From a virus: DNA of 39,519 nucleotides. The notes below the pieces were generated by a model. It was not told where the DNA came from. It was given only the letters and a program-made list of their open reading frames with translations, and made no database searches. The stretch spans positions 1 through 39,519 of IMG/VR virus record IMGVR_UViG_3300021089_000011, one strand, 5' to 3'. Shown piece by piece: positions 8,601 through 28,399 of this stretch (position 1 is its first letter; each line of letters begins with the position of its first letter). Made by a program: the position numbers and the translations under genes.

Positions 8601-11600
8601 TTTTTTTGTTAGAATTAGATAACGCCACTCTATTCTTATCGTGTAGTTCTCGAACTTTAACTACATTCTCAAGGGGGTTATCGCTTACTTTAATCCCATT
8701 CTCCTTAAGTATTGCTATATTTTCTTTGTTTTGTTTAGCAGCTTCTAGTTCTATTTCTTTGAAAGAGGCTTCACCAGTCTTTTCAACCATCTCCTGGTAT
8801 ATAGTCTTTGGTTTACCTGCTTTTATACTTTCAATACTGTAAGTAGATTTTGCTATATCAATATTATACGCGAATCTAAATATACCTGACGTATTTATCT
8901 CCCCTCCAGCTTTGTCGATCAAGTTAAACTCGCCTGTTTGACCCCATATACCAACATAATCTTCCATGTTTTCTTTACCTCTTTTATGGAATTGGTTGTT
9001 TTCTATTAACATTAAAGAAGAAACACCTTTTTCATTACTAGACATAAAGTGTTCAACTTTGTCTCCAGTTTCTGCTAAAGCAAGTTTTTCGGCCTTCGCT
9101 TTTAGTTCCCCTGGCTCGAGCCAATTTTTACTACCCTCTTTTCTTTGATTGTTTTCTTTAGTAAGTCGAGTTAAATGAGTTGTATAATATTTTTTGTACT
9201 CAGGATTGTCTTTTCCTTTAGAGTATTTACCTGTAGGTATAAATATATAACCTTCCGGAGCAAGTATTCTTTCTCCTTGAACACCAATTACTGAATTATT
9301 CTTTTTTAACCTAGCGACATAATCCATTTTTCTAGCCCATTCTGGATTTAATTTACCATCAACATATTTTTCCGTAGGAGTACCATCTTTATTCCTATGA
9401 ACATATTGCTCTAATACAGTATTCCAAACATCGTACAACTCCCTACTTGCCTTTAAGCTTTTATTTGTAAAAGTTGCCTCTGCAATCTTGACTTTCTCTG
9501 CAAGAGTACTCGCCTCTCTAATTTTATCATAAGCAGTGTAGTTTTCGCTAGCGTAAGGACTCTTAAAGCTATCAAAATTTATTTTTTCTAAACGAGCTAA
9601 GAGTTCTGGATCAAATCTAGATTCTTTTTCACCAGGTTTTGTTATAAGGTTTTTTCTTAATCCACTAATAAATGAATTCGTAACTATATTGTTTTCACCA
9701 GTAGTCCTATAGTGACTAGTAAATAATCCTTCAAATATTCTTACGTTTCCTAATACAATTCCATCTGCCAAAAATATTTCGCTCGCGATATCATTTGACT
9801 GGCTCATAAAGTTTTCTTGTGACGTACCGTTTTCTTTAAACTTCGTAGCAGACAGTTCACTAATACCACCTTTGCTATATTCCTGCTTAGCGATATGTTT
9901 TGATATTCCTTGTGTTAAAGGATCGGTTTCACTGACTCTACCAGCTTCTAATTTTTCCGCTGCATAATCTCTAACGTAACCACCCATTTTTCCAGCTAGT
10001 TCTGGTCCATAGCTTTTTGAAAAATCTTCGTGACCTAAAAGACCGTATGAATTCCACAAATCCCTATACTCATTATAATCACCGACATGACCATCTTCCA
10101 TGAGTTTATCAGCAAAATCCTTAGAAGCCATGCTCTGATCCTTTCCAGAAGCAATTTCATGTATAACAGTTTCAATCGTAGTATTATGAGCTAAGTTTGG
10201 AAACTTATCAGGGTTTTTCATTATATACTCCCTAGCGCTTTGATTGTATACGATTCTAGAAACTTGCTCTTCTAAATTTTTAATAGCAGTTTTTACGTTT
10301 CTAAAGTCTTTACTAGATTTATCTATAATATACTCTAGCTTTCCATCTTTCATTATAGTAGTTATGCCAAGGGTCGCTAAGAATTGATCCTTAGTCATTT
10401 CTATTTTATTTTGTACTGGATTACCAGCTGCGTCACCAGTCTTCTTAAACTCAACTCTTTCACCTTTAGAATAAAAGTATTTTAATAAACTATTTTGCAA
10501 TCCAGTTGCCTTGCCAGTTATTGGTGAGACATTTTGAGGAAGAGAATTATAGATCAACATCGCGTTTTCACCTATAAAATTTACTTGATCTTGTGTTTTT
10601 TTACCAAAAGAAATTAAGTTAGGATTTTTTAAGGTTTTATAACTAGCAGTACTGAAATCAACCCCTTCAAAAGAAGCCTCCATTTCTTTTACCATTTCCC
10701 CTGTTACTACTTTCTCTCCATTTATTACTAATTCTTCTTTAACTGTAACGAGAGTTTCTGTTGGCACTGGCGAACCTTTTGTTCCACCACCACCTAAGCC
10801 GTCTTCGTTTGTTAGCGTGTCAAAGTCAAAATCTCTTTTAGTACCTACTAACTCTTTTGTTTTTAAGTATTGATAAGCATTCCCATCTCTAAGTTTAAAT
10901 GCAGGCGTAGCGTATCCCATGAATGGTGTTGGATTGTCTATCCATTTACCGTCTTTCAGTATTTTAAACTGATAAGAATCTACCAACTTCTCAAACTCAC
11001 GCATCATGGCTTGTTTGAAATCGCTCTTTTCAACTCTATCCTCTTTACTAACTCCAGCTCCCTTATTATAAAGCTGGTTAATAATTTTATCTATACCTTT
11101 TTGATTGTTTTGTATTAAATCATGCTTTAAAGAATTTAAACCATTTAGTCCTTTCTTTTGATTTTCTAAATCTCTCCATTCTTTCTCTTTAGCTTTATCT
11201 GTCCAAGCACCGTCTTTATAGTATTTATCAAATAATTCTTTAGAAGTAACGCTAATGCTTTCTACTTGCAATTTTATTGCGTCAAAAGAAAGACCTCTTC
11301 CACTTTTTCTAGGATCAGGATCTTTGCTTATTTCTTGGTATGGATTCTCTTTTAAATTCTTTTGAATTGTTGTGTTTTGTTCTACTATTTTTTCATTTTT
11401 AACCTCATTGCCAAACTCTAAAGGAGCTTGACCTTCTGGACTTCTGGAGGTGAATCTTGGATCTTTTAAGGTTTTGTTTATTTCAACTAATTCAAGCCTA
11501 AGGTTTTCAATTGCAACATTATCAGCTTCAGTTCTTTTGTCTTTTGGAGAACTATTTATTTCCTTTATTATCTCTTGCTTACGATTATTTAAATTAGTAA

Positions 11601-14600
11601 TCTCTATATTCTTAGAACCCCTTGGCGTGACAACCTCGCTTGTTAACTCAGTGTGCGTAGATAATATATCTAAACCTCCTTTCTCAACAGGTTTTCCAAG
11701 TAGTTTTATAAACGCGTCGAAAGATTTTTCGTTGAACTTACCTCCTTCAAGACCTCTAGCCACAACACCTAACAACTCCATAGCATCTTTTGCCTTAACG
11801 TTAGTAAACATATTAAAGTTTTCTCTTAGCATTGTTTTAATATCAACAGCCAACGACTGCATATCAGATTGCGCTACTTTTTCATAGTATATTTCTGGTT
11901 TAGATAAAAATTCTACCATATACCCAAGGAACTCTTCACTTTTAACACTACCTGTGCCTTGGTAATAGTCTTCTATAAATTCAGCTAACTTATACTCTCT
12001 AGTTCCTTTGTTTGCTTCTGTCATGTAAACTGAAAAGTCAATATTCTTAAATTTATCAGCAACATTTTCTATAAATACTTCTTTTCTTTGTTTACCACCT
12101 TGACTAAAGTAAGCGTCAACAGTTGCGTGTATCAAGGCCTCGTGTTGCACTTTACCAACCTTGTATAGTTTAGGATTTATTAATATAAAAGGTTTGTCTT
12201 GTTTTTTTCCTTTAAACATAGATCCTTTATAGTTATATTGAGCAGCGTTAGTTTTGTGATAAAAATCAGCAGGGTTTTCAGAAAAATGAATATCAAAACC
12301 TCTATACTCAGGATTTTCTTTTGTTAACTTTGCTTGAAACTCACTCGCGTTACCAAATCTATTCTCCATAGTTTCCTTCCACTTTGGATTTGTTTTTGGA
12401 TCTAGACTAGTTAAAGTTTCATGCTCTTTGATCATTTGGTCTATAGTAAGCTTTCCGTTTAACAGCGCGTTATATTTGTCTATAGCTTCTTTTTCTGATA
12501 ATTTTTTGTTACCAAATACTTTTGTAAATATACCAGTACCAGGTTCCATTTCTACAACGCTATAAAGCTCTCTCATTTGCTTTTCTATATCTCTAATAGC
12601 AGAATATTTACCAGCTTCACCCATTAGATCTGTTTTTCTAATATTATGCAAGCCATGGAAAGTAAATGCAGCAGCGTGAGTTAGCCATCTTTGAACATTT
12701 TCACCTGAATCACCGAAATACTTTTCAAACTCTTCTTGGAACTGAACGTCTCCCTTTAAATGTTTTATATAATCACTAGTAACTTTTGCTACATCAAGAG
12801 AAGTAGCACCAACCATACCTACTTTAAATGTTTTTTGATATAATTTAGCAATAGGGCCAAATCTTTTAAAGTTAGCTATACCATGTGTGGCGTCACCGAT
12901 AATTGAAAAAGTCAAACCATCACCTTGGTTGAAGCCCATTATCCCATTCATTTTAAACTCTTCAATACCAGCTCTAGCTCCAAAAGCCACAACGTTATCC
13001 CAAATATTCTTAGACTTTTTCATGTTTGCTAATATACGAGCAGCACCAGTAAAACTTAAAACCCCACCTGTAGCATAACTTAGCGCAGCCAACTGCGCGG
13101 CTATAGGCACAAACCCACCTATAGTCTCCCCTATTCTTTCGTTCCACTCTTGATCAAAAGCTTTTAATTGTTTGGGTGATAACTCTATTTGTTTTAAGTG
13201 AACATTCTTACCGTTTATTTCTATCATACCTCCCACAGAGGCTGCATAAGAATTATATTCATTCACAACATCACGTAAGTGATTTAAAGTTTGCCTACGT
13301 GTTAAATCACCTTCTTGAGCTGGCATACCAACTGTGTGTTTAGTAGCATCTACCAATCCATTCCAAACACTATTAACGAAGCTAATATTTTTCTTAATAG
13401 CTGGTAAATCTATGTTTAAACGCAGCATCTTTTTTATAGAGAATTCTTGCGCAATAGACTTTAATCTAAAAGCCTCGTAATCCTCCCATAAACCTTTATC
13501 TGCATCGCTCATTTCTTTACCATATAAATTCCACTTATCTAATTTATGTGAATTAAATCCAGCCTCGTAAAGTTTTTGAATTGAAATCGTCATCTTCCCA
13601 TCTTTACCCCCTAACATACTACTAAGCTCTCTTGCTTGTGGAAACACGCGGAAAAAGTCCATTGATTCTGATCCAAGATTACCTATATTAAGAGTTATTT
13701 TTTTATCTAAAAACTCTTTTTCAGTATGTTGCCTTATCTTTAGAACGTTATCATGGTAATGCTCATAAACTTCAGCATCGGTCATTGTAGCTGGTAGCGA
13801 AGCTGCTAATATAGCTAGTTCAAGATCCGAAAGACCTTTAAACTCTTCAGCGAGTTCTCCAGCTTCTTCAATAGCCTCAACGCTGTACTCATTATTAAAC
13901 AACATGCTAGATAACTCTGGATTTTCAATTACCACCGTTGGTGGTTTACCACCCCAAGCACGAAAGGTAGGATCATGAGTATATATGGGAGTCTCAATTT
14001 TTGCGTTTTCAAGAATTTGAGCTTTTAAATCGTCAAGTTCTTTAATTTTTTCTCGCCTGACATTTGTATCAGTTATATTTTCTAGTTCCGCTTCCTTTTT
14101 CTTTATATCCTGAAGTAAACCATACTTTATCTTCAATCTTGGGTTAGTATTTAAACTCTTGAGAAATTCAGCTTCTCTTTCTCGTTTAAATTCAAGATCT
14201 AATTCTTCACCACTAACCTCTAAATTTTTTGAGTTATTATTATCGGTGTTAATCTGCTGGACAATACCATCATACATACTGAATAGTTTATTGAAATCTT
14301 CTTTGTTTATTACGGCGTCAGGTTGCATCTTATTGACCCTATCAAAAACAGCAGTTCGTATTTCATCTTTATCATCCTCGCTGAGTTCTCCAGCTCTAAC
14401 AGAGCTATATCTAGCGCTTAACCCCATAGATTCTGGATCTGTTATAGCTATTTCAATCCCACCGTGAATAAGCTGCGTGATTACCTCCACTTGTTCTGGG
14501 TTGGCTTTGTAACCGTTTGCCGCTAATTGCCTTTCAGTGTCAAAGGTTGGGTTTATGTCTTCTTTGTTTATCAGTTTAATATCATAAAAACCATCTTCCC

Positions 14601-15324
14601 CTGGCGTTTGGTTTGTTAAGTTAAATATATATTTTTGATCTCCAGATATTTCTTGACTATCTAACCAAGTCGTTATATCTTCTAATGAATTCGCGTTATT
14701 CTGCTTTACAAGATCAAACACTTGTTTATTACCATTAGCAGCTGTAATATTAATAAATTTTCCATGTTGAGCGTGCTTGGCCCAGTTAGCGTTCACATCT
14801 TGAATACTTGCCGCACTAACTTTGAAACCTCTATTACCTATATAACTATTTAACCAATTACTAGTTTTCTCAACTGCATCATCTCCAATTATTTTGTCAT
14901 TATAATCTTCTACGTTTAATATAGTTGAAATTGGATTTTTTGGAGGAACCACGACATCTGGTATTTTTATAATACTAATTCCGTCAATACCGGTTTTACT
15001 CAATTTAGCCTCAAACTTTAACGTTTCTTCATCGTCAAAATTTTGTAGCAAACGAACTATTTCATTTTCTTGAAACCCTCGTGCCTCTAAGTCTTCTTTA
15101 AGTTTTTTTCTATCTTTCTTGTGTTGTGAATCCCACGAAGATTTTTCCAAATCTAAATCCGTATTCTCGGGTGTTGTGTTTTTTGACGTTGCAACCACAC
15201 CCTTGTTTGCATCGCCATTCGTCTTTCCCACGTTATCTAATTCGTTTTCTAATAACTCTATTTCTTCTGGAGTGCCTCCATTAGCCTTCACGTCAGCTAT
15301 TACCTCTGGTGTTATTGTTGTCAT
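5686..15324 (-). CDS. Giant polyvalent internal/ejected protein (3212 aa)
   Basis: A single uninterrupted 3212-residue protein, probably packaged in the virion and ejected with the DNA, as are T7 gp16-like and crAss cargo proteins. Recognisable parts: charged coiled-coil N-terminal third; hydrophobic/amphipathic segments near 730-760 ('PIAAQLAALSYATGG'); an H-E-A-L-I-H motif at 1061-1066 followed by E-F-I-E-D, metallopeptidase-like but HExxxH rather than HExxH; a P-loop G-G-A-G-S-G-K-S at 2247-2254 that opens a zeta-toxin-like kinase domain (about 2240-2420; I-I-V-D-A-T-G, R-N-Q-S-R-E-R); a conserved C-terminal membrane-active-looking region (about 2650-3050) with F-Q-N-T-P-M-Q-Y-T-R, well known from marine phage giant proteins; a K/E-rich linker; and two Cys/His fingers at 3150-3173 and 3187-3211. 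No phage RNA polymerase D-x-D-G-D motif was found. Starts 6 bases after the previous stop. Confidence 0.75.
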   Translation of the reverse strand: MTTITPEVIADVKANGGTPEEIELLENELDNVGKTNGDANKGVVATSKNTTPENTDLDLEKSSWDSQHKKDRKKLKEDLEARGFQENEIVRLLQNFDDEETLKFEAKLSKTGIDGISIIKIPDVVVPPKNPISTILNVEDYNDKIIGDDAVEKTSNWLNSYIGNRGFKVSAASIQDVNANWAKHAQHGKFINITAANGNKQVFDLVKQNNANSLEDITTWLDSQEISGDQKYIFNLTNQTPGEDGFYDIKLINKEDINPTFDTERQLAANGYKANPEQVEVITQLIHGGIEIAITDPESMGLSARYSSVRAGELSEDDKDEIRTAVFDRVNKMQPDAVINKEDFNKLFSMYDGIVQQINTDNNNSKNLEVSGEELDLEFKREREAEFLKSLNTNPRLKIKYGLLQDIKKKEAELENITDTNVRREKIKELDDLKAQILENAKIETPIYTHDPTFRAWGGKPPTVVIENPELSSMLFNNEYSVEAIEEAGELAEEFKGLSDLELAILAASLPATMTDAEVYEHYHDNVLKIRQHTEKEFLDKKITLNIGNLGSESMDFFRVFPQARELSSMLGGKDGKMTISIQKLYEAGFNSHKLDKWNLYGKEMSDADKGLWEDYEAFRLKSIAQEFSIKKMLRLNIDLPAIKKNISFVNSVWNGLVDATKHTVGMPAQEGDLTRRQTLNHLRDVVNEYNSYAASVGGMIEINGKNVHLKQIELSPKQLKAFDQEWNERIGETIGGFVPIAAQLAALSYATGGVLSFTGAARILANMKKSKNIWDNVVAFGARAGIEEFKMNGIMGFNQGDGLTFSIIGDATHGIANFKRFGPIAKLYQKTFKVGMVGATSLDVAKVTSDYIKHLKGDVQFQEEFEKYFGDSGENVQRWLTHAAAFTFHGLHNIRKTDLMGEAGKYSAIRDIEKQMRELYSVVEMEPGTGIFTKVFGNKKLSEKEAIDKYNALLNGKLTIDQMIKEHETLTSLDPKTNPKWKETMENRFGNASEFQAKLTKENPEYRGFDIHFSENPADFYHKTNAAQYNYKGSMFKGKKQDKPFILINPKLYKVGKVQHEALIHATVDAYFSQGGKQRKEVFIENVADKFKNIDFSVYMTEANKGTREYKLAEFIEDYYQGTGSVKSEEFLGYMVEFLSKPEIYYEKVAQSDMQSLAVDIKTMLRENFNMFTNVKAKDAMELLGVVARGLEGGKFNEKSFDAFIKLLGKPVEKGGLDILSTHTELTSEVVTPRGSKNIEITNLNNRKQEIIKEINSSPKDKRTEADNVAIENLRLELVEINKTLKDPRFTSRSPEGQAPLEFGNEVKNEKIVEQNTTIQKNLKENPYQEISKDPDPRKSGRGLSFDAIKLQVESISVTSKELFDKYYKDGAWTDKAKEKEWRDLENQKKGLNGLNSLKHDLIQNNQKGIDKIINQLYNKGAGVSKEDRVEKSDFKQAMMREFEKLVDSYQFKILKDGKWIDNPTPFMGYATPAFKLRDGNAYQYLKTKELVGTKRDFDFDTLTNEDGLGGGGTKGSPVPTETLVTVKEELVINGEKVVTGEMVKEMEASFEGVDFSTASYKTLKNPNLISFGKKTQDQVNFIGENAMLIYNSLPQNVSPITGKATGLQNSLLKYFYSKGERVEFKKTGDAAGNPVQNKIEMTKDQFLATLGITTIMKDGKLEYIIDKSSKDFRNVKTAIKNLEEQVSRIVYNQSAREYIMKNPDKFPNLAHNTTIETVIHEIASGKDQSMASKDFADKLMEDGHVGDYNEYRDLWNSYGLLGHEDFSKSYGPELAGKMGGYVRDYAAEKLEAGRVSETDPLTQGISKHIAKQEYSKGGISELSATKFKENGTSQENFMSQSNDIASEIFLADGIVLGNVRIFEGLFTSHYRTTGENNIVTNSFISGLRKNLITKPGEKESRFDPELLARLEKINFDSFKSPYASENYTAYDKIREASTLAEKVKIAEATFTNKSLKASRELYDVWNTVLEQYVHRNKDGTPTEKYVDGKLNPEWARKMDYVARLKKNNSVIGVQGERILAPEGYIFIPTGKYSKGKDNPEYKKYYTTHLTRLTKENNQRKEGSKNWLEPGELKAKAEKLALAETGDKVEHFMSSNEKGVSSLMLIENNQFHKRGKENMEDYVGIWGQTGEFNLIDKAGGEINTSGIFRFAYNIDIAKSTYSIESIKAGKPKTIYQEMVEKTGEASFKEIELEAAKQNKENIAILKENGIKVSDNPLENVVKVRELHDKNRVALSNSNKKIVFAIGGAGSGKSNVISKLKESGAIPKDAIILNPDTKMEADLKKAGLSLDRSIYEKGSPELSQWSTIQQAAIKQFKVDLENAKQQGLTIIVDATGASSNVMAQRYGEFTREGYNTSALFVNTSLEIAQSRNQSRERVLHEKIVKHNWEQVQGNIELYKEMFGENFMEINTDKLKQGDKMPDYLIDQMTKFSSINEGVFASKDIELSTEFNSMMEGNYDVKKEATYSPAKARVISDRRKWYEKSSEWFVGANADDFKGLTNYRLVNQKGKKGEVQQKFYDDNLHIPYAMGVNALNIAKNKIQTEYKSLNKQFPNIKKILDKDIPGEIFSNANAARVYLWTKNGIDMTEFGLSKKDIKKLNDAVTNNPELHAYADQLEMVSGGKGSYVKPDAFWLTQGIKHDLASITTGKGRDNYLAEFNHNVDAIFSPDNLNKLEVIHGRSYREALENSIYRMRKGSNRVFSKEDKLMNNFSDWVNGSVGVTMFLNTRSGVLQTLSATNYIDWGANNPINAARAFANQPQYWKDFAMIFNSPMMKQRRGGLQTDVNHNELAAMAKKGGAKGVIGSLLTKGFIITKTADSFAISAGGATFYRNTFNKHIKNGLSVKEAEKLTWTEFNEKTQTTQQSSDASKISQLQASGLGRLVFAFQNTPMQYTREMKKSILDLSKGRGDTKHNISKILYYGAAQNLLFGALQNALFTAAFDDDDKNFDTKTQRTLNNMFDTILRGSGLPGAVLATTKNTFMKFAEEEKKGFNADHAQTLIQAANFAPPIGIKARKLYSSMYGYQLNKSIIPHMGYSINNPAYQIAGSFTAAATNFPLDRIIQKSYNINEILSGDHQWWQNVSLAAGYRPWDVGIEDAEKLEVKGLVAEEKKIENAKKQKVKEEEKKIEKEKVNIEKQEEEKKEGKEVGCAKQTNDGRCGLPIVKGNKYCTVHQEVEQRKDGKQIQCKKVKKDKKRCGVMTANKSGFCYYHD

Positions 15325-17061: not shown

Positions 17062-17472
17062 TTATTTACTACTTTCGATGAAGTCAGCAGCAATACTAAA
17101 CAACTCAGCTTGTTCTATAGAGCTGTTTCTAAATCTAACATTAGAATAGTACCCCGCTAAACTACCCATATTAACTTTATTATCTTTGCTGAACATGATA
17201 AAGTCACTAGCAGCTGGTGGGCCGTACAAAGTACTCAAAAAATTCGGCATATCGACCGTTATGAGAGAACTAGTGGGGCTAGAGGATATAGATTGTATAG
17301 GTCCGATTTCCCGTATATCTTCCCTATCCGCTGAATCGTGAGGAGGTGGAATAGAGTTAGTAATCCAAGGTTGACTTGTCCCCACTGGAAATGTGTGGAT
17401 GTAATACGCTATATCACCTACTTGTACAGAAGCATTTATTTCATGAGGGAAAGTTAATGTTACTATTGGCAT
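17062..17472 (-). CDS. Small conserved virion (tail) protein
   Basis: A 136-residue beta-rich protein. The N-terminus has 'INASVQVGDIAYYIHTFP' and the C-terminal half has I-M-F-S-K-D-N-K-V-N-M-G-S-L-A-G-Y-Y followed by R-N-S-S-I-E-Q-A-E-L-F-S-I; both elements are familiar to me from a small protein that lies near nozzle genes in marine phage genomes. It has neither a signal peptide nor a membrane helix. It lies between the 771-residue virion protein (5 bases away) and the ejection-type protein. A minor tail or nozzle-tip subunit is likely; no biochemical function is known to me. Confidence 0.5.
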   Translation of the reverse strand: MPIVTLTFPHEINASVQVGDIAYYIHTFPVGTSQPWITNSIPPPHDSADREDIREIGPIQSISSSPTSSLITVDMPNFLSTLYGPPAASDFIMFSKDNKVNMGSLAGYYSNVRFRNSSIEQAELFSIAADFIESSK

Positions 17473-17477
17473 GTTTA

Positions 17478-19793
17478 TTATTTTACTGTTATATAAATTG
17501 TTTTTTCATCACTAGTAGTAACACCATCACTAATAGTGTATCTTATCTTGTCTCTTCCTGTGAAGTTTGGACTCGGCACATATGTTCTGTAGCCAGCTCC
17601 TCTACCTTTGTCCGCTACAATTCCACTTGTTGGTCCACTTACTATGTTGACTGTTTTATTAGCGTCATTAATGTTGAAATATCTATCAATTATATTTATA
17701 TAATTTTCCCCAGAGTTTCGGCGAACAGTTATATATAGATCTTTAGCTGGTGGTTTTGTCGTTATAAATAGATCTGGTTCTATAGTAAAAGTAACATCTT
17801 CTTGTCCAAAAATAGCAGAACTAATATTAGTTGTTACTGTCATATCACTACCACCTTCCTTATCAACACTCATGATACCTGACAAAGCCGCGGCTTTAAA
17901 GTTTGTAAAACTTAGTTCTGTACCACGTGGAAATAGTACTGGTTCGTCAAGAGTTATAACAACCCCGTCAACACTCGTGGCTCCTACTTCACTAACCTTA
18001 CCATGTGTTTTATATGTAAAAGTCAGTGTGTCTCCTGCATGTAATATACTTTCATCTGCTAATGTTATTCTTTTCTCACAATCAACAGAGACTAAATGTG
18101 TTCTAAAATCATTTACTTCAACATTCATTCCAACAAACAAATCATTAGTATTTTCAACTTCAAACTTATTTGTTTTAACGGGTTTTGTTTTTGAATAATC
18201 TGTGCAATCTTCTCCGCTCTCTTCTAATTCAATAATTTTCATTATTGTTTTAGTTTTTTGAACCGTACCCTCAAACTTCATACCAACTTTTACATCTCCA
18301 GAATAAGAAGGAGTAAACCCTGCTGATTCAGTCCCTACTGCTGTAGCTTTATCTTTAATGGGAAATGTTATTATTGGGTCACTATTGTAAGAATCTTCAG
18401 ATCTATTAACTATTTTCTTAATAACGTCACTTCTAACGATACAATCATCCATATTTAGGTTATCCTTAATGTAATAAAGTTCATTACCACTCGATCTAGT
18501 TACTGTAAACGTGTGAGTGAGGTGAGAAAAGTTATTGTCTTTTGACAGAGCTTCGTGAGTCATAGTTGTGTCAGCTCCCGAAATGCTATGTGTACCGCAA
18601 TCCGAACAAGTCCCCTTAGTCAAAGTTAAAGTTGGTACTTTAAATTGATATATTTTTCTGTTTATAATATTTGATTCGTACCTTACGTCACGGTAATAAT
18701 AACTAGTGTCTGCCGATGGTACTATCGTCAAATCATAGATCTCATGTGTTTTATCACCTTCAATTGCAGGGAAATCTTGCTCTATACTATATTCTCCAGA
18801 TTCCGGTAAACTTATATTCTCTATTTTTTTATTTAGAATACTTTGGCCATTACTATCTTTTATAGTTAAAGTAAACATTGGTTTGTTTAACCCATTTATC
18901 CTTATGATTACTGTTTCTCCAATAGCTCTTACGGTTTTTTTACCTTTATACGAGGTGTTACTTGGTTCTTGTTCCCAACCGCGGTGTATAGCAGAACTTA
19001 ATATATTACTGTTTCCAAAGTAACAACTAGTAATTCTTTTTTCGCTTATATCTAAATCTGTCGGAGCCCAACCTTTTATACCATTTTTATTATACCAAGT
19101 TCCATTTTGCCAAGTGTTGATTTCGTTATTTTCAGAATACAAAACTAAAGAAGCAATTTCATCAAACACAGGTATATCATTAACAGTGGTTACAGTATGC
19201 TCTTTTAAGTGGTCTAAAACCTCTTTACTTGGAGACAACGTGTAATCGCTAAGTTGTACTGATCTTGGTATAAAGCAGTTTTGTGTATATCTTTTAGAGT
19301 TAACAACAGAAGTACTAATCTCTGTTTTATTTAAGTTTGCTTCAACAACGTAGTATCCATCAAAAACATATCCACTCTGCTCACATGTTTTATCTCTACA
19401 CTCCCATTTATCACCTAATCTAGGTGGATCACTATCTATAAAGTGATTATTTCTTATAGCGGGTTTAAAATACTGTTTAACGCCATAATATTCTCTTTCA
19501 CAACCAGTGTTATTGTTACTATCTTTAATAACGTAAGTCGAGCAAGGACAAGATATTGTATTATAAAATTCACCACCCTTGGTAGGCACTACTTTTATAG
19601 CTTTTTCATCTTGACCCGTTCCAACCATCTCGTATAGAGCCGCTTCCCCTGTTACTTCTTCGTCTCTTGGATCCCTTGGATCCCTTGGATTCCTTGGGTC
19701 GCTTGAACTCTTCGGACCACTAGGACCTGAACTCGCTGGACCTGAACTCGCTGGACCAAAACCCCCCTTGCCTTTACCTTTTGAATATGCCAT
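17478..19793 (-). CDS. Ig/cadherin-like tail or adhesion protein (771 aa)
   Basis: A 771-residue protein. Residues 1-45 are low complexity: K-G-K-G-K, repeats of G-P-A-S-S and of D-P-R; DNA repeats underlie this. Residues 80-150 hold Cys pairs (S-C-P-C, G-C, W-E-C, K-T-C) and a Y-Y-G-V motif, perhaps a small zinc or disulfide module; a further C-S-D-C is near 400. The middle is made of beta strands with V-G-M-(K/N)-(F/V) repeats at about 500-560 ('VKVGMKFEGTV', 'LFVGMNVEVN'), suggesting repeated Ig-like units. The final ~65 residues match the cadherin-like/Big tandem domain found in surface adhesins: G-P-T-S-G, Y-V-P-S-P-N-F-T-G-R-D, I-R-Y-T-I-S-D-G. Lies directly downstream of the nozzle gene (14 bases). 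Likely a tail-tip adhesin or fibre; no depolymerase motif was seen. Confidence 0.58.
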   Translation of the reverse strand: MAYSKGKGKGGFGPASSGPASSGPSGPKSSSDPRNPRDPRDPRDEEVTGEAALYEMVGTGQDEKAIKVVPTKGGEFYNTISCPCSTYVIKDSNNNTGCEREYYGVKQYFKPAIRNNHFIDSDPPRLGDKWECRDKTCEQSGYVFDGYYVVEANLNKTEISTSVVNSKRYTQNCFIPRSVQLSDYTLSPSKEVLDHLKEHTVTTVNDIPVFDEIASLVLYSENNEINTWQNGTWYNKNGIKGWAPTDLDISEKRITSCYFGNSNILSSAIHRGWEQEPSNTSYKGKKTVRAIGETVIIRINGLNKPMFTLTIKDSNGQSILNKKIENISLPESGEYSIEQDFPAIEGDKTHEIYDLTIVPSADTSYYYRDVRYESNIINRKIYQFKVPTLTLTKGTCSDCGTHSISGADTTMTHEALSKDNNFSHLTHTFTVTRSSGNELYYIKDNLNMDDCIVRSDVIKKIVNRSEDSYNSDPIITFPIKDKATAVGTESAGFTPSYSGDVKVGMKFEGTVQKTKTIMKIIELEESGEDCTDYSKTKPVKTNKFEVENTNDLFVGMNVEVNDFRTHLVSVDCEKRITLADESILHAGDTLTFTYKTHGKVSEVGATSVDGVVITLDEPVLFPRGTELSFTNFKAAALSGIMSVDKEGGSDMTVTTNISSAIFGQEDVTFTIEPDLFITTKPPAKDLYITVRRNSGENYINIIDRYFNINDANKTVNIVSGPTSGIVADKGRGAGYRTYVPSPNFTGRDKIRYTISDGVTTSDEKTIYITVK
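19662..19697. repeat. 9-base tandem repeat (ATCCCTTGG-type)
   Basis: Four 9-base units (two perfect, two with changes) encode the repeated D-P-R tripeptide near the N-terminus of the 771-residue protein. In-frame expansion or contraction would change the linker length without a frameshift. Confidence 0.7.
19723..19752. repeat. 15-base tandem duplication
   Basis: GGACCTGAACTCGCT occurs twice head to tail, encoding the repeated pentapeptide with G, P, A, S and S in the N-terminal linker of the 771-residue protein. The copies are identical, so the duplication is recent or under conversion. Confidence 0.75.
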
Positions 19794-19807: not shown

Positions 19808-22800
19808 TTAATTTATTAAAACGAACCAAGAGCCAGTCGCAGTACAACCTCCAGCGTCAGTAACCGCTACAGAAATAGGGCCTAATCCTAAACCACTTGC
19901 GGTTTGGGTTGAAGCTCCGTTACTCCAAGCGTAAGTATAAGGAGCAACGCCACCAGAAACATTTAAACTTACTGATCCATCTAAATTAGGAGTGCTAGTT
20001 CCACTTGGAGTCGCATCTGTAACAGTACCAACAACACTCATTGGACTAGGATCCACCAGCGTGACTGTCACGGTGTAGCTACAGCCAGGTTGAGAACAAC
20101 CGTAATAAGGATCACCCCACAACCAACTAGTGTCGTTGGAATCACAATTCCAAACCTCAGCTGTGTAAGTACCCGCTGGCATACCAGTAAGCGTGTCGCT
20201 AGAACTAAGATTAACTGTGCTCGCTCCATTTCCTATTAGATCACCGTTAGCGTTTGTCCAAGTTATAAAAGGTTGAGGCTGAATATTTCCCTGTTGGAAA
20301 GCTAAACCTTGTAGTATTGAAAAAGCTGAGTTGTTAGGGATTGGAAGAAATACCTCCAATACCCCATCATATGCCCCAGGACAAGAAGGGTTTACTTGCT
20401 GGAAAACAACAGCTTCCCAATCACAACAAAACTCATCACCAAAACCTATACCACTTATCATTGGAGCATATGCGTTTAAGTTTGTGCCAAGCGGATAATC
20501 ACACTCATAAGCGCCACTACCAACATAAGTACCGGTAGTACTGCAACACAGTTCCCAACCGGTTAGTGGATCGCCTGGTGTTCCGTTTACTCCACTTGTC
20601 CCCATCATATAAAAATCACCATTATACTCCACTATAGCTCCAACAACATAAGTACCAATACCAAATCCATAAGGTATTGCAAGTGATAAATCACAGTTTG
20701 GATAACAAGGACCGCCACAGTTATCATCACAATCATCCCACGCGGTAGGTCCTGTATACTGCCCTGTCCCCCACGCGTTTCCTACACAGTTTCCATTAAC
20801 ACAATCATATGAAGGATAAGCTCCTCCATCATCATCACAACAATCTTGCCACTCATTACAAAAATCATAACAAGGGTGCAGTGGGTTACCACCTACCCAT
20901 TGATCACACTTACCACAACACGTTTGCCCCGCTGCGTCATAAACTAAATCTCCTGGGTAATCGTCACAAGGATCACCGGGTAAACAGTCAATCCTTATAT
21001 TAAACGGCCCGTATTGACAACCGTAATTATCTGTTATTACTGCATAATAAATGTTGTACGATTCTGTTCCACCGTTAGCAGTTGTTAATCCAACATACGT
21101 ATTAGACCAAACTCCAGTAGCATAAGTGTTTGGATCTGAATATATAAGACTTCCCATTGTAGGTGGTCCAGTTGTAGACCAAATTGAATCATAGTACTCT
21201 ACAGTCCAACTGGTGAATGGATTTAAACTAGTTGAATTATTGTTTGTTACCATAACAGAAACACTACCATCACTAGCTGATAACACACAAGGTGGGTCAA
21301 GCTCTGTTGGATTTGTTGTTGTCATTTGGATACCCATGTTTTGACCATCACAAGGGTCGCTACATTCGTTTATACAATCATTCTCAGCGTTTGGTCCTGT
21401 GTAGAAACCATTTCCAGTTGTGTTTTCTTCGCAATCTCCCTCAATGCAATCATAAGTAGGTAGTGTTTCGTACAAACAATCACAATTTGGGACATTTGCA
21501 CTTGGGTTGTAGTTTGAAGAAGGACCTACCCATCCAGAAGGTCTGTTTTGTGTTATAAAAGGATCAGTCGTTATTCCATCGTCCATACAGCCATATATAT
21601 AAGGCGCACTAACAGATTGTAAACCTAAGCAATCATATAAATAAGTATAACCGTCATCACAGCAGTTGGAATTCATCACGCAGTCACATAAACTTGAGTA
21701 ATCCCCACTACCATCACCTGGATCAACACAACCATTATCAGTACAACACCAAGTCGCATTAGTACCACAACAACTACTAGTATCGTTTTGACAAGCGGCT
21801 TGAGTTGGATAAGAACCTTGTGAGCCAGACACTTGAACACACTCACATGGATAACCAGTACAATTCCAACTTACTGTTGGACCACAATCTGGACAAGAAT
21901 TACCATTAGTATTGTTACCAATACCTTGAAAAGAAAATTCTTTTGGATCAACGTTTCCAGCTGTGCCATCTCCAGTCCAAATTGTTTTAACTCCTTTTAT
22001 TTGACTAAAGTATTTTTCTTCTTTTGATATAAATTCTAAATTTCCAATTTCCTGCAGGTTACTAGCCATTTCGCTAACATACCAACCTTCTTTCGATGTG
22101 TTATCATAGTATTCTGGATTAGTTTCATCAGCTGTTATTCTAGCTATACTACCTTCGTAATTTAGCGTGGTAAAGCTTTTCACCATCCCAGGAATTCTAT
22201 TTAATAGTGCATTAACATAAGAATCATATTGATTTCCGTAATAATTATTTCTTTCTTCGTTTGAATGATGGAAATATAGTTCCCCGTTTTTAAACGTATA
22301 ATATTCGTTATTTAAACTAACACCGCTTTCTTGTAAATAAGATCTAAAACTAACCCAACCTTTTGACCCTTCACTATAAACTAAAGTAAAACTAGTTTCA
22401 TCTTCAATGTTTTGTATGATCGTTCCATTACTAGAGCTGTCATCTGCCGATCCACTTCCACACCCATCTGCTGAATACCAAAAATAAGGATTTGATATAT
22501 TACCAGGATAAATACCAGAGTAATATGTTACTTCTAATTCGTATCTACTATTTACTAAAGTTATTGAGTCTATTTGGTATGTTAATATTGGTGCGCTAGA
22601 ATCAACCCATTCACCTTCCCTTGATGTTGTCTCGTTCCCGGTTGACTCTTGGAAGTGTAAATAAACATTTCCATTAGGACAACAATCTAGTATTTCCTGC
22701 ATAGCAACAAAGTATGGTTGTATGTTATCTGTCCATAAGTTCATAAAAGGAAAATGAATCTCATCAACATTTTGATATGATGAACCACTGAGCGCTACCA

Positions 22801-25800
22801 CCCCGCCGATATATTGACCAAAAGGTTGAATAACACCGTAAGGTCCCTGCATATTTGTCGTGGAATCTCCAATTTCACCATAAGGGACTATTCCTAGCGT
22901 TTGGTTATATAATTGTCCCCCAGCGGTATGATTAACATATCCGATTTCATTATTTCCAGAAGGAATTGAACTTACGTTAATTGTTTCTTGGCAGTCAACT
23001 TGTGACACAGAACCACTTCCATCGTCACAAATACCGCTACCAGTAGTACTACCGTTATAATCACCTGGAATAAGTGTTATATTGTACTCTTGTTTTTTAT
23101 TATCAAAACTACCTATTATACTACCACCCGCTGCTTTAGCGTAAACTGGAAGTACGTCGGCAAACCAATCTTTCATTCCAGCATCAGATATTGGAGTTAT
23201 CCCATCTTGCGACAATCTTAAAACAGCTCCTCTACTAGCGTCAGAAAAGTAAGACCTATAACTATCTGATGCGAAAGATTCTGGATTTTTAGATATCCCA
23301 TAATCACCTAAGAAAGGTTTTACAGCACCAAGAACTCTATTTGTAGCTACAACATTCGTGTTTCCATCAGCGTTATATAAAGCGTCTTTATTTGCAAATA
23401 CCTTTAAAACTCTATCCTCACAGAAGGCAACTAAATCATTGTCTCTAGCTTGTGTTTTTTGAATACATCCATATCCTGGGTTTACATCTTTAGTAATAGC
23501 CTCTGCTTGTATAAATTGATTTAGATCATTTACACCACTATTTGAATTATATATACCAGACCATATAAAACCTGAACATCTTCTTTCTTCTAAATATGGT
23601 TCTTCTAATGTCGTGGAGGCTTTTGGTCCATTATCTATTGTGACTTGGTTGTAGTCATCTCTAATTCTATCTGACTCAACGCCATTACCATCAGAATAGC
23701 AATTAAACCAAGGTATTTCTACTGGTAAAAAGTGTGCTTGGGAATGGAGCGAAACCCAAAAACCATTTGCACTTGTTGGTATAGCTGTTACTACCCCCGC
23801 TGTTATACTACCATCGGCCCTTTCAAATTCAATTATACTACTTACATTCGGAATAAGGTCGCCGGAAGTGGCTCCTAACACGTTAACCCCTAATGGAGTT
23901 CCATCTGAAGTGCCTAATAGCACTCTACTACCTACCGCATCCAACACCCTTACATCATTACCACCATTTGCACTTAACGGAACGCTTGCTCCACCTATAA
24001 AATTCTTACACTTTACTGATGAATTTTTCAATATATCCGGCCCAACAGGCCCAACATGCTGCTCTATAGTAGAATCGTTTAATTCTATGGGGTATATTTG
24101 CCCTACTTCATAATAAATATCTAAACCAACGTCTTCTTTAGGTTCTGTTTCCCAAATAGCTGGATTATTACTTGTGAAAGAGTTGTCCTCTGCGTCTTGC
24201 ACAAAATACTCTTTTATGTCAAACGTTACACTACCTGGTGGTGGTTTTTGTAATCTATCCGCCGCTGTTGGGTTATTATCAAACGCTCTATATTGAGGAA
24301 TATTTTCTTCTGTTTGACCCGCCGCGTTATACCACCAAGGAAACGCAGGAATTCCGTATCCTGTGTGCATTCCATCTGGACGTATACCTGGCGCTCGATC
24401 TCCAGTATTAGTAGCACCATCGTAAGCAACGGTAGTTACTGGGTTTACAGTTATCGGGCTTAAACTCCCATCAAAATGCGCGGCGTTCCAAGGGCTATTA
24501 GTTGGCTTGTAGTAGTGAGGTCCAACTTCACCAATAGCAACATTATTACCTCCAGAATCTAAAACTTCCGCCATGCTACCTGGGTCTAAAGGCACAGCCT
24601 TAATAACATATCTCCTACGCATATTGTAGGATCTTCCCCAATCCCAAACTCCAACCGGCCAAACATTATGGGATTGAAGGTTGTAATTAGTATAATTACC
24701 TTGAGACACTCTAACGTGATCAACATGTGTTTCCGGGCAGTGAGAAGTTACGGAGCTTGCACCGCCTCCTGTTATGCAATTGTGTGGAATCCAACACGTA
24801 CTATAATCATAACTCCAACACCCAGTCCCACTCATTGGTTTTGTCCAACCGCTAGGAATCCAACCATTTTTCTTACCTCTACTAACTAACGTGTCTTTGT
24901 CAGCACCACAAGTCCCTTCACACAACCAACCCGGCCACCCACTACTACTTACACAATCTTTATGATGTACATGACTAGTCCAGTAGTCAACGAAATTAGC
25001 ATAATTATACATCGCCACACCGGGTTTTCCATCCATAGAATCGATCATTTGATCTTCATATGGTGATCCAGCTAAACTTTTCACCCTATAATATACTTTT
25101 CCTGGGTCTTCTCTCCAAGTAAAAATACATCCAGGTTGTCTTAATTTTTCTATAAAAAGAATGTCAGCTTGATGACGAATAGCATCTGATTGAAAATCGA
25201 AATCTAAATCAGACCAAGATGTAGGACCGGTCCCAGTTTCACCTCCTTCATCAATTAACCCAGAGTATGATAAGAATATAAAGTTCCCATCTATACCTCT
25301 GTTTGGAGTTTTACCACCGTTATCACCGGCAGAAGTGTTTTCTACAGTGTTATTGTTATTAGTTTGTACTGGTGGTTTAACGTTCCCTAAACCTAAGTAA
25401 TTACTAGAGCTGTAATTCTGACCGTACGTGTTAACCCCTAAAACTTTTAACATTTTCTTAGTTGGATCATCTTCATAACTTCCTCTTCCCACGGCCCACC
25501 AGCAAAGTAAGTAATTCCATGGGTTTGCCGCTGCATTCATACGTTTACTAGAATCATCACCAAACATACGCATTGTGTTGTTAAATGGCACAAAACCTTC
25601 GACCGCGTCTATAAACCAACCTTTAGAGTTAGAATCAGAGTAAGCGCCTTGCTCGTCGTGACGACTAGCACGCTTCCAATATTCTGTCCCTTGACCACTA
25701 GAACCTTGTTCGCAATGCCAGTTTTTAGTACTATTCCTTGAATCTACTGATATCCTCCATTTATTGGGTTGCCCGTACCACGTAGGAGCTGGATGAGCGA

Positions 25801-28399
25801 AACCTACTCTAGGATTAATATACTGCACTTGCATAGACGCTTGTGTTAAGAAAAGTTCTATTGAAGTTCCACTTGTTCCAAGTGCGTTTATAATAGTTTC
25901 ATCTCTCAGTATTTTAGCAAAAAATCTTCCTTCAAACTCCGCTTTATCTTCTGGTATTCTTTTTACAACCTGCAACTCGCAGTTTGTTATCCTATTATTC
26001 CAAGTCCCATTTGGACTTGTTATACTCATGTCGGTATCAAATACCTTTGCTGAGGTTAATATGAAACAATTAGTACCTGGATCCCAAGCAACTTGCTTTA
26101 ACCTATAATATTTAGATATACCAACGCTAGTTTTTACGCGCATATAAACTTGTGATACATCCTTATCTCTTAAACTAGTATCCCATCCGGCATTTATAAA
26201 AGCTTCTTTTTGTACATATATGTGAATACCACCTTCATAGGGGAACGTTGCCATACTACCAGCACCTAAAGCGGGTACATCTATAGTACTAGGCGGGACT
26301 CCAATTGTAACGGTGTAATCTACTAAAGATCCCATAGATATATGTTGTAGCTTAATAAATCTAGGCGCTTCGTTTTCTATTGCTATAATTTTATACCTCG
26401 CGCGCTCAGAAACAAAAGTATTATTATCATGTTGTTTCTTTAGTATTAAAAATGTTTCTTCGTCAACCTTATTTCTTTCCGCAGAAGGAAATGACAACCA
26501 GATATTACCATCCTCTGCATCATACCAACGATCCATAGCCATGTTATAGTATTCGTTGGAAGTTTCTTTAATAAAATATTTGTAGTGAGTTGCCCAAGAT
26601 GGTGGGGTATTTCTAGCGTGAACAATAAAACTATTTTTTTTGTCAGCTACATCTTTAGGTACATAGACTGAGGCTTGGGAGACTAAGTTTCCTCCCCTAG
26701 TGTCTTCTGATAGAACAGGTGTTTCCCTTCCATACTTGTCTATATAAACTATTCCTACTTGATATGTTCTGAGGGTTTTAACAGATTTAGCAGGACTGTA
26801 TGTTTGAGGGTATCCCCAGCGTTCAGGAAATTCTTCTGGGTAACGATCTCCTATGTCACGAGATCTATATGAAATTGATAAATCAGGTTTTATATTGTGC
26901 TCAGCAGGATTTACAAATTCATTGTCTAAATTATAGTTTTGTAAATAATTTCCATAAACTAATCTATTACCAATTATTTCTTGCGCTAAAGCTTTTCTAG
27001 GAACGTTGTCCCAAGGCCTTAAAAGCTGGTTAGACGGCAATACTGCGTGTATCATCTCTGACGTCAAAGGTAAATAACCTTTAGTCGAATTATCGTTGGT
27101 AGTAGAAGAAGAAGAATAAGCGTTCCAACTATCCCATTTATCTAAATCAAATTTTCGCCTTTTAACATGCTTTACAGAGTATACATTTGAAGAGTTTGAT
27201 TCTTTATATAAAATATCAATACCAATAACATCTTGCGGTATAACTTTACTATATACGAAATCTTTTATAGCTAATTTTCTTAGGTTATTAACCATCCCTA
27301 GATTATAACCTTCCTTACACATGTAGTTAAATTTACCAGGGAGAAATGCTACCTCTGTAAATGGTGAGAAACAAGAATATTCACCATCTTCGTATTTATA
27401 TCTATATCCAAATCTAGGAAATTTAAACTTAAACAATGGATCAACGTCTTCAAGTTTAATTTTAAGATTTTCTTGTAAATGTAAATCCTTGTTACCGGTT
27501 AAAAATTCAATATCCCAAGTCCCTGGGTTTATAGCGTTACTTATTTGAGCTCTAATATAGTCACTAGGATCTTCTTCGCTATATATAATAACCCAATCAC
27601 CAACTTGCCAATCCATTCCGTTAGGTGTTTGTATCTGCACGCTCGACCAAAATTCCACTGGATCAACGCTTGCTGAATCTAAGAAATCAGCAGTAGAAAC
27701 AAGATCGCCTTGAATTTCTTGACCCCCAACATTTCCATCGTTGTCAATGTCTCCACGTGTTGTATCTACCATCTCCAAAACAGGAGCGGCTGGTGGTCCT
27801 TTTTTGATGATTGTAACGTGTTCTTCTGCTAAGTTCGTTGGTACACCTAGATTATAATCAACCCAACTACCAGGTATGGCATTAACCGCAACATCTCTAA
27901 CTTTAAACTTCGTGTGAGTATTAAAATTGGGGGTTCCAGCAATACTTCTAGTTATGTTTATCTTTTTGGGTTCTGAATTATTATCTGTCCAGTATAAAAT
28001 ACCATCCATAATATTTATACCAGTTATAAGAAAGTTTTTATCAAAACTTAAAACTTTATTTGTAGGTTCGGAAGTAACACAAACCGGTATAATAGATCCT
28101 GTAGTGTAGTCGTATTCAGCTATAGCGTTGTACCCATTATCACCACAAACAAACCAATATAACTTATTGCTTCTATTGTCAGCAATTGATCCTATACAAG
28201 TTAAGTTCTTACTTCCACTTGGATCAATTTGGTCCACTAAAGTATTACCCATTGTCGTTTGTAAAGATCCTATATCAGAACCTTCAGAGGTTGCCACCTC
28301 TATATTCAATGCTTCTCTATACTCCCCATCAGGTACTATTCTTTCGTCAAGATCTTTATTCATTCGACCTTTCTGAAAGTTGTGCTTCATTTCCGGCAT
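19808..28399 (-). CDS. Giant nozzle/muzzle tail protein with SprB-like C-terminus (2863 aa)
   Basis: A 2863-residue tail protein. The N-terminus (9-50) carries F-Q-K-G-R-M-N-K-D-L-D-E-R and G-E-Y-R-E-A-L-N, a signature of marine phage 'stabilization'/nozzle proteins that I recognise; these resemble T7 gp12-like beta-propellers. A second conserved block at about 1690-1745 (G-D-Y-G-I-S-K-N-P-E-S-F, Y-R-S-Y-F-S-D, R-G-A-V-L-R-L-S) belongs to the same core, which seems to end near 2150 (G-W-Y-V-S-E-M, Q-I-K-G-V). The last ~700 residues are different: roughly fifty cysteines, four imperfect Y-D-C-x-x-G-x-C repeats, one G-C-M-D...N-Y-N-P-S-A-N unit, and three SprB-like domains (about 2350-2475, 2660-2785, 2785-2863; the last with G-G-V-A-P-Y-T-Y-A-W-S-N-G). 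A Cys/His-rich insert sits at about 1150-1205. Likely closes the tail channel and touches the host. Starts 3 bases after the preceding stop. Confidence 0.72.
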   Translation of the reverse strand: MPEMKHNFQKGRMNKDLDERIVPDGEYREALNIEVATSEGSDIGSLQTTMGNTLVDQIDPSGSKNLTCIGSIADNRSNKLYWFVCGDNGYNAIAEYDYTTGSIIPVCVTSEPTNKVLSFDKNFLITGINIMDGILYWTDNNSEPKKINITRSIAGTPNFNTHTKFKVRDVAVNAIPGSWVDYNLGVPTNLAEEHVTIIKKGPPAAPVLEMVDTTRGDIDNDGNVGGQEIQGDLVSTADFLDSASVDPVEFWSSVQIQTPNGMDWQVGDWVIIYSEEDPSDYIRAQISNAINPGTWDIEFLTGNKDLHLQENLKIKLEDVDPLFKFKFPRFGYRYKYEDGEYSCFSPFTEVAFLPGKFNYMCKEGYNLGMVNNLRKLAIKDFVYSKVIPQDVIGIDILYKESNSSNVYSVKHVKRRKFDLDKWDSWNAYSSSSTTNDNSTKGYLPLTSEMIHAVLPSNQLLRPWDNVPRKALAQEIIGNRLVYGNYLQNYNLDNEFVNPAEHNIKPDLSISYRSRDIGDRYPEEFPERWGYPQTYSPAKSVKTLRTYQVGIVYIDKYGRETPVLSEDTRGGNLVSQASVYVPKDVADKKNSFIVHARNTPPSWATHYKYFIKETSNEYYNMAMDRWYDAEDGNIWLSFPSAERNKVDEETFLILKKQHDNNTFVSERARYKIIAIENEAPRFIKLQHISMGSLVDYTVTIGVPPSTIDVPALGAGSMATFPYEGGIHIYVQKEAFINAGWDTSLRDKDVSQVYMRVKTSVGISKYYRLKQVAWDPGTNCFILTSAKVFDTDMSITSPNGTWNNRITNCELQVVKRIPEDKAEFEGRFFAKILRDETIINALGTSGTSIELFLTQASMQVQYINPRVGFAHPAPTWYGQPNKWRISVDSRNSTKNWHCEQGSSGQGTEYWKRASRHDEQGAYSDSNSKGWFIDAVEGFVPFNNTMRMFGDDSSKRMNAAANPWNYLLCWWAVGRGSYEDDPTKKMLKVLGVNTYGQNYSSSNYLGLGNVKPPVQTNNNNTVENTSAGDNGGKTPNRGIDGNFIFLSYSGLIDEGGETGTGPTSWSDLDFDFQSDAIRHQADILFIEKLRQPGCIFTWREDPGKVYYRVKSLAGSPYEDQMIDSMDGKPGVAMYNYANFVDYWTSHVHHKDCVSSSGWPGWLCEGTCGADKDTLVSRGKKNGWIPSGWTKPMSGTGCWSYDYSTCWIPHNCITGGGASSVTSHCPETHVDHVRVSQGNYTNYNLQSHNVWPVGVWDWGRSYNMRRRYVIKAVPLDPGSMAEVLDSGGNNVAIGEVGPHYYKPTNSPWNAAHFDGSLSPITVNPVTTVAYDGATNTGDRAPGIRPDGMHTGYGIPAFPWWYNAAGQTEENIPQYRAFDNNPTAADRLQKPPPGSVTFDIKEYFVQDAEDNSFTSNNPAIWETEPKEDVGLDIYYEVGQIYPIELNDSTIEQHVGPVGPDILKNSSVKCKNFIGGASVPLSANGGNDVRVLDAVGSRVLLGTSDGTPLGVNVLGATSGDLIPNVSSIIEFERADGSITAGVVTAIPTSANGFWVSLHSQAHFLPVEIPWFNCYSDGNGVESDRIRDDYNQVTIDNGPKASTTLEEPYLEERRCSGFIWSGIYNSNSGVNDLNQFIQAEAITKDVNPGYGCIQKTQARDNDLVAFCEDRVLKVFANKDALYNADGNTNVVATNRVLGAVKPFLGDYGISKNPESFASDSYRSYFSDASRGAVLRLSQDGITPISDAGMKDWFADVLPVYAKAAGGSIIGSFDNKKQEYNITLIPGDYNGSTTGSGICDDGSGSVSQVDCQETINVSSIPSGNNEIGYVNHTAGGQLYNQTLGIVPYGEIGDSTTNMQGPYGVIQPFGQYIGGVVALSGSSYQNVDEIHFPFMNLWTDNIQPYFVAMQEILDCCPNGNVYLHFQESTGNETTSREGEWVDSSAPILTYQIDSITLVNSRYELEVTYYSGIYPGNISNPYFWYSADGCGSGSADDSSSNGTIIQNIEDETSFTLVYSEGSKGWVSFRSYLQESGVSLNNEYYTFKNGELYFHHSNEERNNYYGNQYDSYVNALLNRIPGMVKSFTTLNYEGSIARITADETNPEYYDNTSKEGWYVSEMASNLQEIGNLEFISKEEKYFSQIKGVKTIWTGDGTAGNVDPKEFSFQGIGNNTNGNSCPDCGPTVSWNCTGYPCECVQVSGSQGSYPTQAACQNDTSSCCGTNATWCCTDNGCVDPGDGSGDYSSLCDCVMNSNCCDDGYTYLYDCLGLQSVSAPYIYGCMDDGITTDPFITQNRPSGWVGPSSNYNPSANVPNCDCLYETLPTYDCIEGDCEENTTGNGFYTGPNAENDCINECSDPCDGQNMGIQMTTTNPTELDPPCVLSASDGSVSVMVTNNNSTSLNPFTSWTVEYYDSIWSTTGPPTMGSLIYSDPNTYATGVWSNTYVGLTTANGGTESYNIYYAVITDNYGCQYGPFNIRIDCLPGDPCDDYPGDLVYDAAGQTCCGKCDQWVGGNPLHPCYDFCNEWQDCCDDDGGAYPSYDCVNGNCVGNAWGTGQYTGPTAWDDCDDNCGGPCYPNCDLSLAIPYGFGIGTYVVGAIVEYNGDFYMMGTSGVNGTPGDPLTGWELCCSTTGTYVGSGAYECDYPLGTNLNAYAPMISGIGFGDEFCCDWEAVVFQQVNPSCPGAYDGVLEVFLPIPNNSAFSILQGLAFQQGNIQPQPFITWTNANGDLIGNGASTVNLSSSDTLTGMPAGTYTAEVWNCDSNDTSWLWGDPYYGCSQPGCSYTVTVTLVDPSPMSVVGTVTDATPSGTSTPNLDGSVSLNVSGGVAPYTYAWSNGASTQTASGLGLGPISVAVTDAGGCTATGSWFVLIN

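Follow-up and report, generated by a model that had tools for sequence, protein, structure and literature searches.

To our knowledge, host attachment of crAss-like phages is largely undescribed, and what is known of the marine crAss-like group comes almost exclusively from metagenomes. Many phage virions are decorated with Ig domains. A described counterpart of the protein studied here is the muzzle gp44 of PhicrAss001, which is placed at the tail end. Its ring-joining domain and propeller resemble those of T7, and the only length variation mentioned for muzzles arises by insertions within the crass domain and the IG2 domain (PMC10172136). The nozzle protein of T7 contacts the adaptor through a platform formed by its C-terminal domain (PMC6702177). 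According to the abstract of one study, tandem repeats of the BACON domain accompany crAss-like phage tail proteins and have moved horizontally in two lineages (PMC6949934). Modular Ig adhesins occur in gut phages, crAss-like ones included (PMC13370021), and the receptors of flavobacterial phages were proposed to be part of the gliding machinery (PMC7345892, PMC13288928).

The window analysed here is a 39.5-kb virus record (IMGVR_UViG_3300021089_000011; 39,519 nucleotides) and was the source of the muzzle ORF under study. The original prediction, made from the letters alone, had described three SprB-type domains in the last ~700 residues of a tail protein.

Results

The 2863-aa ORF is a muzzle with a C-terminal extension

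The ORF was matched by phrog_14478 with an E-value of 3e-140 in the PHROG search, and its genes nearby correspond to terminase, portal and structural proteins in crAss-like order (PHROG matches). Cellulophaga phage phi40:1 has a similar series of structural genes ahead of its muzzle. With tblastn, muzzle relatives were found mainly in Cellulophaga, Flavobacterium, Tenacibaculum and Maribacter phages, and 84 stretches related to the window muzzle were collected from IMG/VR, 80 of which were retained. Judged by these matches, the ORF is a Crassvirales-type muzzle protein, and the window represents a marine phage related to the crAss phages of the gut. The crAss_MUZ_C match remained under the cut-off, yet was found at the expected place. 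The main parts of the gene are as follows:

19808..28399, minus strand: muzzle (crAss-type nozzle) gene, open 2863-aa ORF (Pfam, phrog_14478, 84 related stretches)
27938..28381, minus strand: crAss_MUZ N-terminal match, aa 7-154 (PF25731, 35.7 bits, cut-off 27)
21998..22255, minus strand: crAss_MUZ_C match, aa 2049-2134, close of the conserved core (PF25729, 23.4 bits, just under the cut-off of 27)
19811..21916, minus strand: C-terminal extension, aa 2162-2863 (702 residues), Cys-rich and Lys/Arg-depleted (composition and alignment)

In the alignment with relatives, the homologous core stopped at approx. aa 2161. The extension beyond it contains 51 Cys but only three Lys or Arg among its 702 residues, with neither of the latter in the last 366, and the predicted difference between the last ~700 residues and the conserved core was thus borne out. 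Bacterial SprB repeats are themselves poor in Lys and Arg (mean 1.25 per repeat, 49% with none), so that the scarcity is partly a property of the module.

Some related muzzles vary elsewhere. At ~aa 1800-2000, the window muzzle carries an insertion ahead of MUZ_C that is almost free of Lys and Arg, mostly missing in the related contig L082 and 29% alike in L002. In L174 (2843-11566), two GCTD repeats (described below) lie inside an internal insertion ahead of MUZ_C, which represents a second insertion site of the muzzle. The muzzle is split in L071-L081, L084 and L085, with the MUZ_C region on a separate smaller ORF. The window further encodes an M15 peptidase endolysin (352-807) and a 3212-aa protein (5686-15324) in which residues 2228-2394 form an AAA_33/zeta-toxin-like kinase domain.

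The extension ends in an SprB repeat

The extension was divided into the following segments:

21359..21904, minus strand: Cys-rich front part with a YDC..G.C type repeat (common to L082, L002 and L174; no Pfam match)
21470-21592, minus strand: degenerate GCTD-type repeat GCMDDG...NYNPSANV within the front part (common to L082, L002 and L174)
20984..21358, minus strand: domain 1, Ig-like beta-sandwich, aa 2348-2472 (AlphaFold, hhalign, SprB profile)
20705..20983, minus strand: Cys-rich middle part; contains a second YDC..G.C repeat (from the alignment with L082 and L002)
20537..20704, minus strand: CBM5/12-like segment, aa 2566-2621, sub-threshold (PF02839, 17.5 bits, cut-off 26.2)
20090..20431, minus strand: domain 2, aa 2657-2770, probable SprB-type domain, diverged and with loop insertions (weak profile matches, hhalign, AlphaFold)
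19829..20089, minus strand: SprB repeat, aa 2771-2857 (PF13573, full-length SprB profile, AlphaFold)

The Pfam family SprB (PF13573) matched the last domain with 37.8-44.3 bits at a cut-off of 28, and this was the sole significant Pfam match in pieces of the extension. The motif quoted in the original prediction, GGVAPYTYAWSNG...VTDAGGC, belongs to this match. Pfam scans of the entire 2863-aa or 700-aa sequence missed the repeat, probably through the composition filters of HMMER, and short pieces were needed. A full-length SprB profile was compiled from 1548 repeats of Bacteroidota (78 bacterial loci). It matched the whole ~89-aa repeat with 78.6-85.0 bits (E 4.6e-24 for 78.6 bits in the extension); the phage domain served as first query for seeding, which may give a small favourable bias, although bacterial repeats dominate the profile. 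With the same profile, 200 shuffled extensions reached a maximum of 5.0 bits, and three generic Ig domains of RB43 fibritin 30-33 bits. The AlphaFold model of the last domain had a pLDDT of 80-97 over most of its length, mainly >85. In a Foldseek search of the PDB with a model of domains 2 and 3, the best match was GhpA of Aureispira (9flw, 9flp; E 9.7e-5, 16% identity). By its sequence, the last domain is a true SprB repeat, and it scored far beyond what general Ig domains reached.

The two other domains named in the prediction fared differently. Domain 2 gave three collinear weak stretches with the SprB profile (17.3 bits in all for the isolated domain), an hhalign probability of 41% over a short stretch and a pLDDT of ~35-75; it is probably a diverged SprB-type domain with loop insertions. 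Domain 1 reached only 0.4 bits, and its hhalign match had 93% probability, but covered 22 columns only. It was modelled confidently as a beta-sandwich (pLDDT ~80-95 over most of it) with many matches in the PDB, the best ones being generic folds. According to the model, it is a beta-sandwich without convincing SprB similarity. It is common to L082, L002 and L174 as well as to a protein of another virus, L175. That 1492-aa protein (L175:4992-9470), from a virus without detected muzzle kinship, contains GCTD, YDC and domain-1-type modules and adjoins a possibly fibre-like gene. Of the three predicted SprB domains, the last one is confirmed, and domain 2 is a weak, plausible candidate.

Extensions are patchily distributed among related muzzles

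Across 71 muzzle C-termini, including some of split or partial genes, the length of the extension varied between 7 and 1169 residues. Among the 56 muzzles placed in the tree, 24 ended in GCTD repeats, 19 had no extension, eight carried another kind, three were Cys-rich in another way and two ended in SprB. Well-supported branches of the core tree forced at least four changes of the state without extension. An extension is hence no general property of related nozzle proteins.

In 49 records, a muzzle-borne Pfam SprB match over the cut-off was detected only in the window and its close relative L082; related muzzles otherwise end in GCTD...DDGSC repeat arrays, in FN3 domains or in nothing. The remaining SprB-positive records among the 49 were L168, L170 and L172, none of which matches the terminase family of the window. 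A pattern-limited scan of IMG/VR yielded six SprB loci, namely L082, L168-L171 (four loci with equal match values) and L172, which looks like a region of a bacterial chromosome. Two viral contigs encode SprB proteins with the T9SS sorting domain CHU_C (L168:6855-9293 and L179:7549-12561); one of these contigs has GroEL and thymidylate synthase and one is a 642-kb huge phage. The proteins of L168 and of the huge phage LR756502 are apparently secreted adhesins.

The GCTD repeat is Cys-rich with the consensus GCTDPTAFNYDPNATTDDGSC and was found in up to 16 copies at the C-terminal end of the muzzle in L026, L027, L032, L063 and ~28 other loci. No Pfam family was found for it, and among the papers listed in a literature search with the string DDGSC, none was relevant as judged by title. 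The repeat is apparently undescribed.

The terminal part is exchanged as a cassette

Divergence between the window and L082 was compared at four-fold sites. It amounted to 0.12-0.31 in the head and ring genes, to ~0.5-0.65 across the muzzle body and the first part of the extension, and to 0.22-0.30 in the SprB end (SprB end versus muzzle body, Fisher p 5e-8). A single change point was located at aa 2573/2574, where the differing sites dropped from 80/139 to 30/122 (permutation p 0.0005). Amino-acid identity was 66-81% from residue 2501 on and, over most of the distal crass-domain region, 30-47%. In the core tree, L082 groups with L002 and L174 (SH-aLRT 99), the muzzles of which end in sequence unrelated to the SprB end, while the latter is shared by the window and L082 only. 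Because of this breakpoint and the conflict between tree and SprB sharing, the muzzle body and the last ~290 residues must have been separated by recombination. The C-terminal ~290 residues form a separable cassette, which has been exchanged from phage to phage:

19811..20680, minus strand: exchangeable terminal cassette, aa 2574-2863, with most of the CBM-like segment, domain 2 and SprB (four-fold-site breakpoint, tree conflict)

A simple recent transfer of the SprB end into both phages was considered and had to be tempered, as the head genes of the window phage and L082 are equally similar. Since the SprB end is about as diverged as the head genes, the replacement may instead have affected the muzzle body.

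The muzzle C-terminus borders a variable site

Two genes follow the muzzle:

17478..19793, minus strand: next gene, 771 aa, with a Big_9/Cadherin_5 domain at the C-terminus; fibre-like and located at the same insertion site (PF17963, 29.9 bits; position in relatives)
17062..17472, minus strand: conserved 136-aa gene, downstream boundary of the variable site (downstream of most related muzzles)

The 136-aa gene comes after most muzzles, either directly or behind one fibre-like gene of ~1.2-2.5 kb (more in one case). By a count made by hand from a table, a separate gene preceded it in 17/17 muzzles without and in 15/29 with an extension (p 0.0005, which is generous, as near-identical contigs were counted apart). 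Accessory domains seem to be placed in the muzzle extension or, alternatively, in the separate gene; the window phage has both. In L016 (15985-17205) and L020 (15678-16940), GCTD repeats are located in a separate gene directly after an extension-less muzzle. The 136-aa gene (window:17062-17472) matches the C-terminal end of phrog_18548, the N-terminal part of which matches the MUZ_C region of the muzzle. Because phrog_18548 spans both, the 136-aa gene and the muzzle may be pieces of one ancestral protein.

The SprB module probably came from Bacteroidota

The last domain nests among Bacteroidota repeats with a best identity of 54%, which is the usual range between bacterial loci. In an SprB tree of 98 rows, which was poorly resolved with too few columns to single out a donor bacterium, the nearest bacterial rows by path were Saprospiraceae. 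SprB repeats are present in hundreds of Bacteroidota contigs; in one Bacteroidota order, they occurred in 42/42 genomes and GCTD repeats in 34/42. Among the matches listed in these 42 genomes, none was a bacterial protein like the whole arm. They were confined to the SprB domain and its edge (query residues 584-699), and the whole arm was therefore not taken over from a host protein of this order. The sequence comparison makes a Bacteroidota origin of the module likely, as had been predicted; the further claim of a capture from the phage's own host did not find the same backing, the clearest recent exchange being one between phages.

Discussion

An accessory adhesin arm on the muzzle, ending in SprB and exchanged as a cassette, is the best explanation for these results, and we consider it reasonably probable. 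The muzzle hexamer would carry up to six flexible arms, one per subunit, each a string of presumably disulfide-bonded Cys-rich repeats, Ig-like domains and the CBM-like segment, with the terminal SprB repeat of likely Bacteroidota origin. The arm would most likely act as an adhesin that fastens the virion to glycans or proteins on the surface of Bacteroidota cells, or to polysaccharide in the surroundings, with gating and injection left to the muzzle core. Recombination replaces the terminal cassette as a unit at the variable site, which lies between muzzle core and 136-aa gene; in other phages of the group, this site is occupied by another extension or by a fibre-like gene of its own.

The adhesin function is suggested by the kinds of modules, their patchy swapping and the precedents of BACON repeats (PMC6949934, abstract) and gut-phage Ig adhesins (PMC13370021). 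The original prediction is supported as to an SprB module of Bacteroidota type on the tail protein of a phage; contact with host surface or polysaccharide would be its presumed function. Against this function stands that the window and L082 resemble each other most in the terminal part, whereas receptor-binding domains are often hypervariable; moreover, the CBM match lies under the cut-off, and only one SprB repeat is certain. As to its position, the muzzle profile gave no match in the PDB and could not be mapped by sequence onto the solved gp44 structure, so that the place of the C-terminus rests on the analogy to T7. The nozzle C-terminus of T7 is a platform facing the adaptor, and the arm more likely leaves near the rings at the tail side than forms the distal tip, which makes the predicted location at the tip of the nozzle doubtful.

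Ig domains commonly decorate phage virions, and the arm could be a structural or spacing element in the manner of Hoc-type or fibritin Ig domains, stabilising the tail or holding fibres with no binding of its own. The last domain does match phage decoration proteins weakly, the Ig domains of RB43 fibritin partly match SprB, and the C-terminus would be near the fibre-docking side by analogy to T7. We nevertheless regard such a role as unlikely, if worth keeping in mind, as 19 of the 56 related muzzles have no extension at all and even close relatives end in unrelated sequences, a pattern that would be unusual for a structural element. Binding to environmental polysaccharide (particles, algal mucilage) rather than to the host, comparable to gut phages with BACON or PKD domains adhering to epithelium, would suit the CBM-like segment and has a parallel in the modular Ig adhesins of gut phages, crAss-like ones included (PMC13370021). 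It appears unlikely as well, as such modules are just as characteristic of the host phylum.

Interference with gliding, in which the SprB copy mimics or blocks the host's gliding adhesin and disturbs motility or superinfection, was an option of the original prediction and draws on the receptors proposed in the gliding machinery (PMC7345892, PMC13288928). It gained no support and is very improbable: the single certain repeat sits on a virion protein, the N-terminus of which is muzzle core and not a signal peptide by domain content, and no T9SS sorting domain (CHU_C or other) was found in Pfam scans of the whole protein and its pieces. SprB repeats are also widespread in proteins of many Bacteroidota, and their presence in hundreds of contigs and in every genome of the order examined means that the module does not imply gliding. 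Even less credit can be given to a generic Ig-like fold that resembles SprB merely through the GG-x-PYTYxW turn. This motif also occurs in the phage decoration protein 5lxk of the PDB and in RB43 fibritin, but no Ig, PKD or FN3 profile was among the Pfam matches to the last domain at E up to 10, and the idea was rejected because of the 78-85 bits set against 30-33 bits for the fibritin domains. Finally, a metagenomic contig as source raises the thought that assembly fused a bacterial SprB tail onto a phage gene. The chance of this is negligible, and it was rejected, as the independent contig L082 has the same gene with the identical fusion, 71% identity over the whole extension and downstream genes in the same order.

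If the adhesin arm is real, a muzzle with exchangeable adhesin modules of host type would offer a direct way to learn what crAss-like phages attach to, and the BACON story of gut phages would be extended to a different module, another virion protein and another biome. The analysis also brings into view an apparently undescribed Cys-rich repeat (GCTD...DDGSC) common to marine crAss-like phages and a Bacteroidota order. As a broader and tentative proposal, which we hold to be possible but would not favour, marine crAss-like phages may swap whole adhesin cassettes of host surface modules (SprB, GCTD repeats, FN3) at a dedicated site at the muzzle C-terminus, so that attachment to host or substrate evolves independently of the injection machine.

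Compared to known systems, the phage copy has the same full-length repeat sequence as PF13573 of Bacteroidota surface proteins and nests among their repeats. Those proteins contain many repeats, whereas the window muzzle has one certain copy and neither a long array nor a signal peptide or T9SS sorting domain. The grappling-hook protein GhpA of Aureispira is a bacterial surface adhesin too, and its likeness to domains 2 and 3 is at the level of the fold. The fibritin (Wac) of the Pseudotevenvirus RB43 shares with the window muzzle Ig domains on a phage virion and a partial SprB motif, but its domains fit generic Ig profiles better than SprB, unlike the last domain here. Like the SprB repeat, the BACON repeats are a Bacteroidota module, of carbohydrate-binding type, found with crAss-like phage tail proteins; they differ in domain family, belong to gut phages and, judging by the abstract, are not muzzle-borne (PMC6949934). 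The gp44 of PhicrAss001 (PMC10172136) has a core homologous to that of the window muzzle by Pfam crAss_MUZ and a like place in the head-to-tail gene order; the window muzzle differs from it by its additional C-terminal extension of ~700 aa.
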